Of a stretch of DNA of 64,000 nucleotides, positions 3,448 through 49,425 are shown piece after piece. The notes under the pieces were generated by a model. That model saw only the letters and a program-made list of their open reading frames with translations, ran no database searches and was not told the DNA's origin. The translations under genes were made by a program, and so were the position numbers. The stretch spans positions 5,146,001 through 5,210,000 of the forward strand of contig NC_013947.1 of NCBI RefSeq assembly GCF_000024545.1, given 5' to 3'. Source of the stretch: Stackebrandtia nassauensis DSM 44728 (GTDB lineage Bacteria > Actinomycetota > Actinomycetes > Mycobacteriales > Micromonosporaceae). Each line of letters opens with the position of its first letter. The first letter of the stretch is position 1.

Positions 3448-4869
3448 TCAGCACTGGCTGTCGCGCGGCGGCTGCGTGGCGGCCGGGCGCGGGTCGACCA
3501 TGCTAAACACGGCCAGCATGTTTCGCCAAGCCCCCGAATCGGGGATGAACACCTCACTGTGAGCGTGGATACCCGAGATCCGTTTGCCGGTGATGCCCTG
3601 CGAACCGAGGGTGCGGCCGACGTCGTCGGGGGCTTGGGGGTCGTCGGGGAGGTACCCGGTTTCCAGGCGCACCACACCCGGCAGGTCGTGCACCCCGGCG
3701 CCGTGGCCCAGGCCGGTGGCGGCCGGGATGTCCTGGACGTAGCTGATCGGGTCGCCCGGCGCCATCATCGAGTAGCGCTCGCGGCAGCGCGGCTGGTAGT
3801 CGCCCGGCCCGGTGACGCCGTATCCGGCGCCCGCCGAGGCGACGTGCAAGACGCGGTCGGCGTCGAAGCCCTGGACCTCTGCCAGGCCCACGACGGCGCC
3901 GCCGTAGGAGTGCCCGGCCACGGTCACCGCCACGTCGCGGTCGTCGAGCTGCCGGTTCAGGTCGTCCATGAACTCGACCAGTCGCGGCGCCGCGTCCTGG
4001 GCCCAGGACGGGTCGGCCTCGTCGACCCAGCCGGACGGCGACGGCGGCTGGGCCCACACGATCACGGCCAGTTCGCCGTCGGCGGCCTCGACGAAACTGT
4101 CGGCGCGGGCCGAGTAGCGGCCGAAGTTGCCGCTGGCGGCGAAGCCGCCGGGTTCGCCGGTGGTGATGAACGCGCTGCCGCCGGGCACCAGGACGGCGAC
4201 GTAGTCGGCGGTGTCGAGTTCGCCGCGCACCTCGACCCACGAACCCATCCGCTGGTTGGCCGCCGGATCGAAGTAGATCAGCTGCCGTCCCGCGTCCAGC
4301 AGGTGCGAGTAGTCGCGGCGCGGCTCGCGGTCCGCCTCGGTCCAGGGCCGCGTGGGCGACGGCCAGGCCCGGGAACCGGCGACCACGGCCGCGGCCCGGA
4401 TCCGGTTGGCGGCGATGCGATCGGACAGTGCGGCGCCGTTGAGGTTGCCGATCACGCCGGGGAACACGGCGGCCAGCCACCGGGTGGCCTCGGCGGGCAA
4501 TTCGCGGTAGGCGCGGGCGACGTCGCGGACTCCGCCACCAGTGTCGAGTATGGACTTGAACTTGGCCAGCCCGGCCTCCAGCGGGTCGGCGGCGTCGGCG
4601 GCGGGGACGGCCTCGGCGCGCTCGCTGGCCAGCCGCGGGTCCTTCGCGATGGCGGCGGCGGCCTCGGCGGGGCCCAGGCGGGTGTACTCGGACGGCAGGT
4701 GGTCCTCGGCCAGCGAGGCGGAGCGGCCCTGCGCCATGGCGTCGGCGATGAGACCGACGTCGGCGTGGGCGGGCGTGGTGGTGCTGACCGAGCCGGTCAC
4801 CAGCGCGGCCGTGACCGTGACGGCCACCCCGCAGGCGGCAACGCCACGCCAGGACCGTTCCCACGCCAT
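3448..4869 (-). CDS. Secreted alpha/beta hydrolase (DUF1023-like)
   Basis: A 473-residue exported protein. A long signal sequence ends near AHAD. The body is an alpha/beta hydrolase of the actinobacterial DUF1023 type, with nucleophile elbow GHSYGG at about residues 317-322 and a downstream HAHSEVF stretch that could carry the catalytic histidine. ATG at 4869 follows a TAGGCT -10 hexamer by six bases and there is no Shine-Dalgarno, so the message is probably leaderless. The SGNH hydrolase follows 18 bases after the stop. Members are usually annotated only as hydrolases; no substrate can be given. Confidence 0.85.
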   Translation of the reverse strand: MAWERSWRGVAACGVAVTVTAALVTGSVSTTTPAHADVGLIADAMAQGRSASLAEDHLPSEYTRLGPAEAAAAIAKDPRLASERAEAVPAADAADPLEAGLAKFKSILDTGGGVRDVARAYRELPAEATRWLAAVFPGVIGNLNGAALSDRIAANRIRAAAVVAGSRAWPSPTRPWTEADREPRRDYSHLLDAGRQLIYFDPAANQRMGSWVEVRGELDTADYVAVLVPGGSAFITTGEPGGFAASGNFGRYSARADSFVEAADGELAVIVWAQPPSPSGWVDEADPSWAQDAAPRLVEFMDDLNRQLDDRDVAVTVAGHSYGGAVVGLAEVQGFDADRVLHVASAGAGYGVTGPGDYQPRCRERYSMMAPGDPISYVQDIPAATGLGHGAGVHDLPGVVRLETGYLPDDPQAPDDVGRTLGSQGITGKRISGIHAHSEVFIPDSGAWRNMLAVFSMVDPRPAATQPPRDSQC

Positions 4870-46676: not shown

Positions 46677-48020
46677 TCAGGGCGCGATGCGATGCAGGTC
46701 GCGCGGGAACAGCGTGACCTCACGGATGTTGGCCACACCCGTCAGCTGCGCCACGAACCGCTCCAGCCCGATCGCGAAGCCACCGTGCGGCGGCATGCCG
46801 TGCTTGAACGCCTCCAGGTACCCGGCGTACGGCTCCGGCGACCCGCCCTGGGCCGCGATCGCCGCCAGGTAGTCGGCGTACCGGTGCAGCCGTCGCCCGC
46901 CGGTCACCATCTCGGTGCCCCGGAACAACAGGTCGAACGAGTCGCTGTACCCGGGCCGCCCCGGGTCCTCGGCGGTGTAGAACGGCCGCTTGCTCATCGG
47001 ATAACCGACCACGACCGCGAAGTCGCTGCCGTGCTCCCGCCGCGCCCACTCCCCGACCCAGCGCTCATGCGCGGGCGACAGGTCGTTGACACCCGACAGG
47101 TCCTCGCCGGTCTCCCGCGAGATCAGCTCCAGCGCCTCGGCGAAGTGCAGCTCCGGAAACCGCGACGGCACCTGGGGCACCACCGGCTCCAACAGCGCCA
47201 CCGCCGCCGCGGCACGCTCGGCGACAGCGGACACCATGCCCGCCACCACCTCCCGCAGCACCTCGGCGACGTCCCGGTAGCTCTCGATGAACCCGAACTC
47301 CACGTCCAGCGACGTGTACTCGGCCAGGTGCCGCACGGTGTCGTGCGGTTCGGCCCGGAACACCGGCCCGACCTCGAAGACCCGCTCGAAGACACCCACC
47401 ATCGTCTGCTTGTAGAACTGCGGACTCTGCGCGAGATAACCGGGTCGTCCGAAATAGTCGATCGCGAAGACGTTGGCCCCCGACTCGGTCGCCGAGGCCA
47501 CGATCTTCGGCGTGAAGATCTCGGTGAAGTCCATGGCGGCCACGGTTTCCCGGAACCCCATGGTCGCGGCCGAGGCCAGCTCGAACGCGGCCTTGCGCCG
47601 GGGATGCCGCAAACTCACCGGCGCCCGGTCCAACAGCGTCGGCAACGTGGCCCGCAGACTCGGCCGGTACAGGTCGAACGGCGGAGCCTCGGCTTCTCCC
47701 AACACCGTAATGACCGGCTCGACCAGCTCCACTCCACCGGGAGCGGCCGGGTTGGCGACCACCGTCCCGGTCACCTCCACGACGGTCTCCTCGTTGAGCT
47801 CCTCCAACCGCGCCCGCGCGACCTCCTCGCTGACGACCACCTGGGCCAGCCCCGAGCGGTCCCGCACGATCGCGAAGGCCACCGATTTGAGCAGCCGCCT
47901 GCGATGCAGCCACCCGGCTATCCGGATTCTCGCGCCGACGTGTTCACTCAGCGCGGCCGACAACACCCTTGGCGGGGTCGTGGGGGCCGCGGGGCTCGGC
48001 GCAGTCATTGACGTTGACAT
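46677..48020 (-). CDS. aspS: Archaeal-type (short) aspartate-tRNA(Asp/Asn) ligase
   Basis: A 447-residue class IIb synthetase. N-terminal anticodon-binding OB fold (ARIRIAGWLHRRR), motif 2 FRAEPHDTVRHLAEY and motif 3 GGFAIGLERF are all present. It lacks the bacterial GAD insertion, so it is the short archaeal-type AspRS; the FRAEPHDT motif separates it from AsnRS. Such enzymes are often annotated as non-discriminating Asp-tRNA(Asn) ligases. ATG at 48020 is set by GGAGGTGT 9-11 bases upstream, which is itself part of a T-box switch. It may be a second, inducible AspRS; the housekeeping copy would be elsewhere. Confidence 0.9.
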   Translation of the reverse strand: MSTSMTAPSPAAPTTPPRVLSAALSEHVGARIRIAGWLHRRRLLKSVAFAIVRDRSGLAQVVVSEEVARARLEELNEETVVEVTGTVVANPAAPGGVELVEPVITVLGEAEAPPFDLYRPSLRATLPTLLDRAPVSLRHPRRKAAFELASAATMGFRETVAAMDFTEIFTPKIVASATESGANVFAIDYFGRPGYLAQSPQFYKQTMVGVFERVFEVGPVFRAEPHDTVRHLAEYTSLDVEFGFIESYRDVAEVLREVVAGMVSAVAERAAAAVALLEPVVPQVPSRFPELHFAEALELISRETGEDLSGVNDLSPAHERWVGEWARREHGSDFAVVVGYPMSKRPFYTAEDPGRPGYSDSFDLLFRGTEMVTGGRRLHRYADYLAAIAAQGGSPEPYAGYLEAFKHGMPPHGGFAIGLERFVAQLTGVANIREVTLFPRDLHRIAP

Positions 48021-48292
48021 GTGGTTCAACACCTCCTTGGTTCTGATGGAAACCCCGGAGGTGTGGGCGATCGGGATATCGCGGTGCCACCACACCTTCA
48101 CCGTGAACTGGAAGTCCACGGCCTCGTTCGTCGCCCGTGTCGTGGGCCAGTCGGCGGGCTCTACTACGACCTGAACGGCCGGTTCCTCCCGCGGCTCCGG
48201 AGGGTCTTCACAACCTCGGCCGCAGACCGCCTTCCCAGCTACCGGCGGTTCTCTCCTACTGCGGTATCGAGGTGCTACTCGTCTCCTTCAAT
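48021..48292 (-). promoter_or_regulatory. T-box riboswitch, translational type, specifier GAC (Asp)
   Basis: On the minus strand: AGTA box (48276-48279); distal stem I CCGCAG/CTGCGG (48259-48264, 48220-48225) with the AGGAGAG and GCTGGGAAG landmarks between; specifier GAC at 48204-48206 after GTGAA; T-box core TGGCACCGCG at 48080-48089. The TGGC bulge complements GCCA, the 3' end of a tRNA with discriminator G, as tRNA-Asp has. The sequence GTGTGG before the T-box pairs with CCACAC (antisequestrator), and ACACCTCC (48057-48064) can instead pair with GGAGGTGT (48029-48036), the Shine-Dalgarno. Thus uncharged tRNA-Asp would free translation. Confidence 0.85.
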
Positions 48293-48304
48293 GCCGTGCC
48301 GACG

Positions 48305-48334
48305 ACTGTAGCCGACGCCCCCGGCCGCTGCCAG
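48305..48334 (-). promoter_or_regulatory. Promoter of the T-box transcript
   Basis: CTGGCA (48329-48334) and TACAGT (48305-48310) with 18-base spacing; predicted start near 48298, just before stem I. Confidence 0.45.
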
Positions 48335-48356
48335 CCGATATCGCGGGCACGCGAAA

Positions 48357-48384
48357 GGGGACAGGGCGCCCGCGCCCTGTCCCC
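48357..48384 (-). terminator. Perfect hairpin terminator after the 48402 gene
   Basis: GGGGACAGGGCG (48357-48368) pairs with CGCCCTGTCCCC (48373-48384), 18 bases after the acidic-protein stop and just before the T-box promoter. Confidence 0.7.
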
Positions 48385-48401
48385 TGTTGTACCGGGGTGG
48401 A

Positions 48402-48830
48402 TTAGAAGATGGAGTCCAGTCCGCCTTCGCCCTTGCCCTCGCTGTTGGAGCCGCCGGACTCGCCCTCACCGGACTTGTCGTCCTCGGTCTTCTCGCCACC
48501 GGACTCGCCCTCGCCCGACTTCTCGCCCTCACCGGACTTGTCGTCGCTGGACTCTTCGCCCTTGGTCTCTTCCTCACCAAGCGGGTCGCCCTCGAACGAA
48601 GCCTCGGTGTCCACGTAGCCGTCGCCGTCGAGGTCGGACATCTGGGTGTCGAGGTTGCCGTCGCCGTCCTCGTCGGTGTACAGCTCCTCGATGATGCCGT
48701 CGCCATTCTCGTCGACGGCGACCTCGCCGTCCTCACTGATGTAGGCCGTGGAACCGTCGTCGAGGGTTTCGGTTTCGTACTCGTCGCCCGCACCGTCGCC
48801 GTCGAAGTCGACAAAAACGTCGTCGCTCAT
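48402..48830 (-). CDS. Acidic DxDxDG-repeat protein 1
   Basis: A 142-residue, strongly acidic protein without signal peptide. The N-terminal half has several dockerin/EF-hand-loop-like DxDxDG motifs (DFDGDGAGDEY, DENGDGIIEE, DEDGDGNLDT, DLDGDGYVDT) suggesting Ca2+ binding; the C-terminal half is a Glu/Ser/Gly/Lys low-complexity tail (EGEKSGEGESGG). It pairs with a paralogue 200 bases upstream. Function unknown; intracellular calcium buffering or a structural role are possible, and export by a non-classical route cannot be excluded. ATG at 48830 preceded by AAGGGAAGG. Confidence 0.78.
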   Translation of the reverse strand: MSDDVFVDFDGDGAGDEYETETLDDGSTAYISEDGEVAVDENGDGIIEELYTDEDGDGNLDTQMSDLDGDGYVDTEASFEGDPLGEEETKGEESSDDKSGEGEKSGEGESGGEKTEDDKSGEGESGGSNSEGKGEGGLDSIF

Positions 48831-49038: not shown

Positions 49039-49425
49039 CTAGCTACCCGCTGGCTTCTCGGTGGCGCCGGTCTCCTCTTCCGTACCCGAGGCGGTGCCCT
49101 CGCCGCCCAGGTAACCCAGCGGCATGCCGCTGGACGATCCTGCCGTGGTGTCGGCCGGTGGTTCCTCGGTGTCCGCTGGTTCCTCCTCCAGCGACTCCTC
49201 GGAGTCCATGTAGCCGTCACCGGTTTCATCAATGTGGACGGTGTCGAGGGATCCGTTGCCGTCCTCGTCGGTGTGCAGCTCGTCGATCAAGCCGTCACCG
49301 TCGTAGTCGTAGGCGACTTCGCCGTCCTCACTGGTGTGCGCGTAGCCACCGCCGTCGAGTTCCTCGGTGCTGTACTCGTCTTCGGAGCCATCGCCGTCGA
49401 AGTCGATGTACGGTTCGTCGGTCAT
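49039..49425 (-). CDS. Acidic DxDxDG-repeat protein 2
   Basis: A 128-residue paralogue of the preceding gene. The first ~80 residues align with it (DFDGDGSEDEY, DYDGDGLIDE, DEDGNGSLDT, DETGDGYMDS) and the C-terminal tail is a different Glu/Thr/Pro/Gly-rich stretch. No signal peptide. ATG at 49425. Each gene has its own terminator, so they may be expressed separately. Function unknown; see the first copy. Confidence 0.78.
   Translation of the reverse strand: MTDEPYIDFDGDGSEDEYSTEELDGGGYAHTSEDGEVAYDYDGDGLIDELHTDEDGNGSLDTVHIDETGDGYMDSEESLEEEPADTEEPPADTTAGSSSGMPLGYLGGEGTASGTEEETGATEKPAGS

Follow-up and report, generated by a model that had tools for sequence, protein, structure and literature searches.

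A translational T-box leader predicted to read tRNA-Asp upstream of a second, archaeal-type aspartyl-tRNA synthetase gene in Stackebrandtia nassauensis

The aspS2 locus and its leader

The DNA analyzed here (the window) is a 64,000-nt stretch of Stackebrandtia nassauensis DSM 44728, taken from the forward strand of NC_013947.1 (5,146,001–5,210,000); the host genome is a single contig of 6,841,557 bases. All positions given for this locus are those of the window, and the gene and its leader both lie on the minus strand. The gene, aspS2 (46677–48020, start codon ATG at 48020–48018), was assigned by NCBIfam model NF003483 and encodes a 447-residue archaeal-type, probably non-discriminating aspartyl-tRNA synthetase (AspRS2). 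Its T-box leader spans about 48298–48029. The initial annotation had placed a T-box at 48021–48334 without stating a strand; the element does lie within that range, but 48334–48299 is the promoter region and falls outside the element proper. There, just upstream of stem I, we read a −10-like hexamer, TACAGT (48305–48310, minus strand), and a similarly placed TA...T can be seen by eye, with no statistical test, in several relatives of the leader. A GC hairpin at 48351–48390, noted as an inverted repeat in the sequence and entered without a strand, is perhaps the end of an upstream gene on the same strand. Beyond it, on the minus strand, 48402–48830 and 49039–49425 encode neighboring acidic proteins with D-x-D-G-D repeats that look alike by eye, the former having no Pfam match.

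The Rfam search that the initial annotation had proposed as a check aligned the T-box model RF00230 to the leader end to end (model 1–219 of 219, including stem I, the discriminator and the UGGN bulge) with 67 bits and E values of 1.7e-14 in 471 bases and 6.0e-14 genome-wide, though this is below the gathering score of 93, and a default Rfam scan of the window was empty. The only other T-box match in the genome at E 1, the leader of its own ileS gene, reaches 50.1 bits and also falls below the gathering score, so this threshold is a poor test for T-boxes in this class; the aspS2 leader is counted as a T-box on other criteria. Each of the eight relatives with an Rfam match likewise scores below the cut-off, and five further T-box-bearing loci, all ultrashort, gave no match at E 0.01. 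Because all nine members with a match, the window leader included, lie under the cut-off, threshold-based annotation would miss members of this Asp T-box group.

The landmarks named initially (AGTA, the distal stem I motif, GAC and TGGC) are all present, every one on the minus strand. Stem I is of the long form (48193–48295), with a k-turn base, a specifier loop with AGUA (48279–48276) and a distal AGAGA (48254–48250)/apical elbow-binding motif, and is defined by the Rfam alignment, covariation helices 1–5 and an alignment of 24 sequences. The specifier codon GAC (Asp; 48204–48206) stands in the register GAA-GAC. Stem II (48154–48192), recognized from sequence and conserved columns, carries an S-turn-like AGGAAC/AGUAGAG, and its consensus predicts only three GGG:CCC pairs without a double change. 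Position and conserved columns place a probable, predicted stem IIA/B pseudoknot region at 48124–48153. Stem III (48101–48121) corresponds to helix 6, in which 94.7% of cells are paired and three pairs have changed on both sides. The antisequestrator (48060–48096; helices 7 and 8) consists of A1 (GGUGUGG/CCACACC), a UGGCACC bulge (48089–48083) and A2 (GCGAU/AUCGC). In the competing sequestrator (48029–48064), placed by folding energies, ACACCUCC (48064–48057) pairs with GGAGGUGU (48036–48029), covering the Shine-Dalgarno sequence (SD) AGGAGG (48032–48037), which lies 11 nt before the ATG.

Fold, proposed switch and predicted tRNA specificity

Covariance among homologous aspS leaders, another check proposed in the initial annotation, was assessed in an alignment of 15 long-stem actinobacterial leaders that includes the window leader. 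RNAalifold predicted 48 pairs, 28 of which keep pairing after changes on both sides. For the 41-pair structure defined on the window leader, 87% of cells are paired and 24 pairs have changed on both sides, compared with 8–14 such pairs in slid controls; none of 500 shuffles reached any of five measures. Pairing is complete or nearly so in the antisequestrator (99% of cells in A1, 100% in A2), where six pairs have changed on both sides; in the middle of stem I, helix 4 is poorly aligned (43% of cells paired). Since the single-sequence folding energy is weakly unusual (z −1.77) and thus weak evidence, the case for a T-box rests on homology and covariation.

The initial annotation had described two mutually exclusive helices that share a strand, one of them covering the SD, and this description holds. 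The sequestrator and A1 share 48064–48060, within the strand ACACCTCC (48064–48057), and cannot form together. For an 82-nt segment the sequestrator was calculated at −34.2 kcal/mol versus −28.2 kcal/mol with the antisequestrator forced; therefore, about 6 kcal/mol would have to come from bound uncharged tRNA. The predicted alternative helix thus both covers the SD and excludes the antisequestrator, the arrangement of a translational T-box. The predicted OFF form contains a further helix at the start codon, between ACCACAU (48019–48025, minus strand) and GUGUGGU from the 5' strand of A1 and the bulge (48089–48095, minus strand); a similar GUGUGG/CCACAC match is visible in leader L008, not in L007. 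Among 54 actinobacterial leaders surveyed, counting that of the window, a helix with six or more pairs lies at the SD in 49, and in 35 a helix of at least five pairs overlaps the A1 strand by at least two (no shuffle control). The SD finder used in this survey is crude and misplaces some sites; L092 was unscored, and no helix was found in L093. In five Streptosporangiaceae-type leaders (L009, L010, L011, L020 and L087) the best SD helix does not involve the A1 strand, with a CCCTG/CAGGG match between, and the layout of the switch may differ.

In the proposed mechanism, the specifier GAC would pair with the GUC anticodon of tRNA-Asp, and the tRNA would be gripped by the distal motif of stem I together with stem II. 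The GCCA end of uncharged tRNA-Asp would then pair with UGGC (48086–48089) and stabilize the antisequestrator, which would take ACACCUCC away from the SD and permit translation of aspS2. With charged tRNA-Asp, the more stable sequestrator would be expected to cover the SD. The analysis establishes the sequence, the fold, its conservation, the identity of the gene, the complementarity to the tRNA and the co-occurrence with a second AspRS; from these we infer tRNA binding, the switch itself and the physiological trigger, switching being read across from the T-box mechanism set out in the available text of PMC7583486. Overall, we regard the leader, with a probability of about 0.92, as a translational T-box riboswitch that responds to whether tRNA-Asp is charged and would add AspRS capacity when Asp-tRNA-Asp is short.

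Several observations bear on the amino acid that is read. The Asp specifier named in the initial annotation is borne out by the AspRS gene, by a tRNA-Asp with anticodon GUC in the same genome, and by conservation of GAC in relatives, which had been suggested as a further check: it is invariant in 24 of 24 aligned long stem I sequences and in all 38 long actinobacterial leaders scanned. The genome's tRNA-Asp and tRNA-Asn both carry G73, so that the C of UGGC pairs with the discriminator base of tRNA-Asp, in keeping with the proposed complementarity to its GCCA end. This bulge reads UGGC in 54 of 56 actinobacterial leaders and UGGU in the other two. Compared with ileS leaders, the specifier loop lacks one base (GAA-GAC), and the Asp register therefore rests on the arguments from gene, discriminator and sister leaders. 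The letter after GAC varies, being A or C in long leaders and A or G in short ones; in the window leader it is C (48203) instead of the usual purine. A purine at this place is conserved in the T-box structures discussed in the accessible part of PMC7583486; we treat it as a usual feature of T-boxes, not a strictly defining one.

Specifier and gene also agree elsewhere, with AUC before ileS in the window genome and UCC before serS in a sister leader. The latter (L136, 1303–1607, minus strand, genome G225) is a T-box with a UCC specifier and a UGGC bulge, followed by a full serS (362.6 bits, cut-off 301.65); judged from sequence, both specifier and gene appear to have changed inside one leader family. 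At another locus (L137, 1501–1604, genome G057) the same stem I with UCC is followed by a gene with a signal-peptide-like start and no synthetase. No T-box core was found in L137, which looks like a relic leader.

A specifier shifted by one base toward the 3' side, ACC (Thr), would follow from the ileS layout, given that the loop is GAAGACCC and that ileS-type leaders of the class read GAAG-AUC-A; moreover, ACN encodes Thr whatever its third base. This register fails because the three tRNA-Thr genes found (UGU, CGU and GGU) all have U73, a base unable to pair with C in UGGC, whereas tRNA-Asp has G73. It also leaves all three GAC letters invariant in long leaders next to a variable fourth, and the sister leader with UCC at that place precedes serS, making a Thr register scarcely credible. 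Sensing of both Asp and Asn by the leader is a very improbable reading, if a shade less so than the Thr register: the gene is annotated as aspartate--tRNA(Asn) ligase, the genome has GatB and no AsnRS over the cut-off, and tRNA-Asn shares G73, but none of the 24 aligned long leaders, that of the window among them, carries AAC or AAU on the 3' side of the loop, where the specifier lies.

The same low standing as the Thr register goes to a genuine switch whose output is transcription termination. Chloroflexota and other leaders of the same gene do carry a terminator-like U-run of five or more within 140 bases of the core (28 of 37 with a core). Such a run is absent from all 56 actinobacterial leaders, including that of the window, and the helix that competes with the antisequestrator contains the SD. 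Least probable of all is a decayed, non-functional leader, a reading that could appeal to the sub-threshold Rfam score and to the existence of a relic-like leader in the class (L137, with stem I); it was rejected, as the landmarks of the aspS2 leader are intact and its helices covary. We retain a translational T-box that reads tRNA-Asp as the preferred interpretation.

The second synthetase and its distribution in the class

The description of the gene product as an archaeal-type AspRS was upheld. AspRS2 scores 542.7 bits against NF003483 (cut-off 353), falls just below the cut-off of TIGR00458 (357.9 of 368.4), and contains, by Pfam, only the OB-fold and the class II core, with no bacterial insertion (GAD) domain. 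Its nearest solved relative is 1n9w, deposited as a non-discriminating archaeal-type AspRS2. In an alignment, AspRS2 has His where 3nel and 1b8a have Trp, as does 1n9w; we take this residue to mark relaxed specificity. The genome also encodes a bacterial-type AspRS, whose gene (L003) has no Rfam T-box match. Given that GatB is present, that no AsnRS scores over the cut-off in this genome and that tRNA-Asn has U1-A72, AspRS2 probably also charges tRNA-Asn for GatCAB and so would feed Asn synthesis, with tRNA-Asp as the signal read. The bacterial AspRS would be the housekeeping enzyme and the T-box-bearing aspS2 an inducible backup.

We surveyed 394 genomes of the window's class, 36 of which have an archaeal-type AspRS, none of these 36 with an AsnRS over the cut-off. 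A bacterial AspRS is also present in 22, and in all 22 a T-box precedes the second AspRS; the 14 genomes with the archaeal type alone have neither a T-box core nor an Rfam match. Twenty-one of the T-boxes were recognized by their core and one (G007, with a variant core) by the stem I model, R1, which is not expected to detect leaders of the ultrashort form. The 14 T-box-free genomes belong to a single bacterial family, and the co-occurrence thus represents few independent events, not 36. The statement in the initial annotation that an Asp-type leader before an archaeal-type AspRS is unusual does not hold within its group, as every one of the 22 genomes with two AspRS enzymes in this sample has the same kind of leader.

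Two cases connect the T-box to the second AspRS within or beside the T-box-free group. Genome G168, which shares its family and genus with six T-box-free genomes, has both AspRS enzymes and a T-box. In G182, the AspRS encoded behind the T-box (L105) shares 54% identity with the T-box-free type (L107) and 39% with the window protein. As a separate observation, the T-box-bearing aspS2 on contig 895 of G007 (L125 and L116) is interrupted after about 97 codons; its core reads TGGCACAGCG, and the remainder of the aspS2 match begins at 3699 of the contig, after an intervening stretch of about 3 kb that holds unrelated reading frames. An interrupted aspS2 fits a dispensable enzyme. In six sequences from T-box-free genomes (L159–L164, last 240 bases, minus strand), the GTG of aspS lies a few bases after a −10-like TAGACT, so these transcripts are perhaps leaderless, the opposite of a long T-box leader.

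What AspRS2 serves may also be framed differently. It might be mainly a resistance enzyme, insensitive to natural aspartyl-adenylate-like inhibitors and induced when the other AspRS is inhibited. The T-box does track the second AspRS (22/22 versus 0/14), even on the different AspRS lineage of L105, and an indolmycin-resistant auxiliary TrpRS1 is listed in the available part of PMC9437257. The table in that part lists no auxiliary function for AspRS, however, and Asn supply or Asp shortage explains the pattern equally well. We regard a resistance role as unlikely, though a good deal more plausible than the alternatives weighed above for the leader itself, and keep an inducible backup enzyme as our working view, whose benefit may lie in Asp shortage or in Asn supply.

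Leader architectures, relatives and possible origin

The aspS2 leader would work like a T-box, a known kind of system, and differs in detail from each described relative. With class I T-boxes (the B. subtilis tyrS type, RF00230) it shares a long stem I, the AGUA specifier loop, stem II and the UGGN bulge; it differs in being translational, in its shorter loop, in the C 3' of the specifier and in its score below the Rfam cut-off. A few translational T-boxes do have a long stem I, as noted in the excerpted text of PMC7583486. The actinobacterial translational ileS T-boxes (Nocardia farcinica, Actinomyces; classes III/IV in the available text of PMC10482949) have the same SD-hiding output, stem II with pseudoknot and discriminator core as the aspS2 leader, which instead has an Asp specifier, UGGC rather than UGGU, and a long stem I that carries the tRNA-elbow motif. 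In this last respect it also departs from the ileS T-box of its own genome. There, stem I is ultrashort and AUC sits in a loop of six bases; that T-box has UGGU and precedes an ileS whose N-terminal 486 residues score 543.8 bits against TIGR00392.

The tRNA-dependent Asn pathway of Clostridium acetobutylicum is reportedly, by the titles of Saad 2012 and 2013, under a T-box with two codons and two tRNAs. That system is also tied to an additional AspRS and to Asp/Asn metabolism; by title, it is set apart from the aspS2 leader, which has GAC only, serves one gene and is translational. One of three aspS genes of C. acetobutylicum has a T-box according to the accessible text of PMC2494555, which also describes T-boxes before the ileS gene of some actinobacteria. 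For its two Chloroflexi genomes, that text names ile and trp genes and no aspS. Thermus and Deinococcus likewise have a second, archaeal-type AspRS beside a bacterial one (PMC4206432, as far as its available text goes); in contrast, the window genome has no AsnRS over the cut-off, and its AspRS2 is predicted to be under a T-box. We found no description of an Asp-specific translational T-box group with a spare AspRS in the open literature searched; TBDB may already list the leader.

Manual sorting of the 56 actinobacterial leaders gave 38 with a long stem I and 18 ultrashort forms. Stem II is absent from 16 long leaders (13 from Kribbella, one record labelled Streptomyces and two Nocardioidaceae MAGs) and short in three. 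The class with a long stem I and no stem II is glycine-specific in the available text of PMC10482949; the stem-II-less leaders here would be Asp-specific. Where stem II is full, C follows GAC in 16 of 18 leaders, a count that excludes L091 (C, full stem II); where stem II is short or absent, all 19 leaders have A at this place. A link between the presence of stem II and C versus purine after GAC is a suggestion, as the tree offers only three independent pairs, about two of which agree and one of which shows no difference. Among the ultrashort leaders, 16 of 18 have UGAC plus a purine within 115 bases of the core, counting L034 and L047, in which the identity of the loop is uncertain; in L045 this motif lies further upstream. 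L093 (genome G068) has a stem I reduced to GGAG-CAGACA-CTCC with GAC in the CAGACA loop; its distal half seems to be absent, which would fit an origin of the ultrashort form from the long one. Stem I length changed at least four times on a quick tree with many weak branches, which leaves the number of losses uncertain.

Of 319 relatives, 80 were retained on scanning genome contigs: 35 from actinobacteria and 45 from elsewhere, chiefly Chloroflexota. Together with 20 leaders from the class sample and that of the window, the 35 make up the 56 actinobacterial leaders; L116, a partial gene in G007, stands outside the leader counts. A T-box core was found in 35 of 35 actinobacterial and 37 of 45 other relatives; among the eight without one, L037 and L075 have fewer than 200 bases upstream and L044 has a variant core by eye. 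A bacterial AspRS scores over the cut-off in the genomes of 40 of the 45 non-actinobacterial loci, one has a partial match below it and four have none. Three Chloroflexota loci (L058, L069 and L081) have two tandem T-box cores before aspS2.

In that quick tree, built from 109 proteins, the actinobacterial members with a T-box, L105 apart, form one clade (98, starred) of 54 T-box rows plus L116, which adjoins a Dormiibacterota and Chloroflexales-like sequences; L091 was omitted (frame problem), and L106, L108 and L116 are partial. Because of this placement and the difference in U-runs, the data are most simply read as passage of aspS2 with its T-box between phyla and a change of output, in a direction that is presumed. 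Combining these points, a wide Asp-specific translational T-box group might mark the conditional second AspRS of actinobacteria. It would derive from a Chloroflexota-like source with a terminator, have been rebuilt to cover the SD, and have been carried onto the L105 lineage and, via a change of GAC to UCC, onto serS (L136). Loss of stem II would go with a purine after the specifier, and loss of distal stem I would give an apical GAC loop, so that orthologous leaders would display ways of trading one part of the tRNA grip for another. We put this joint account forward tentatively, at somewhat less than even odds.

The leaders form a natural series of architectures before one gene family (long stem I with or without stem II, ultrashort stem I, U-run and SD outputs), which allows testing of which tRNA contacts replace each other. 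Actinobacterial T-boxes have been discussed for ileS in the literature as available to us; the Asp group adds a second amino acid and clearly ties a riboswitch to a spare synthetase.
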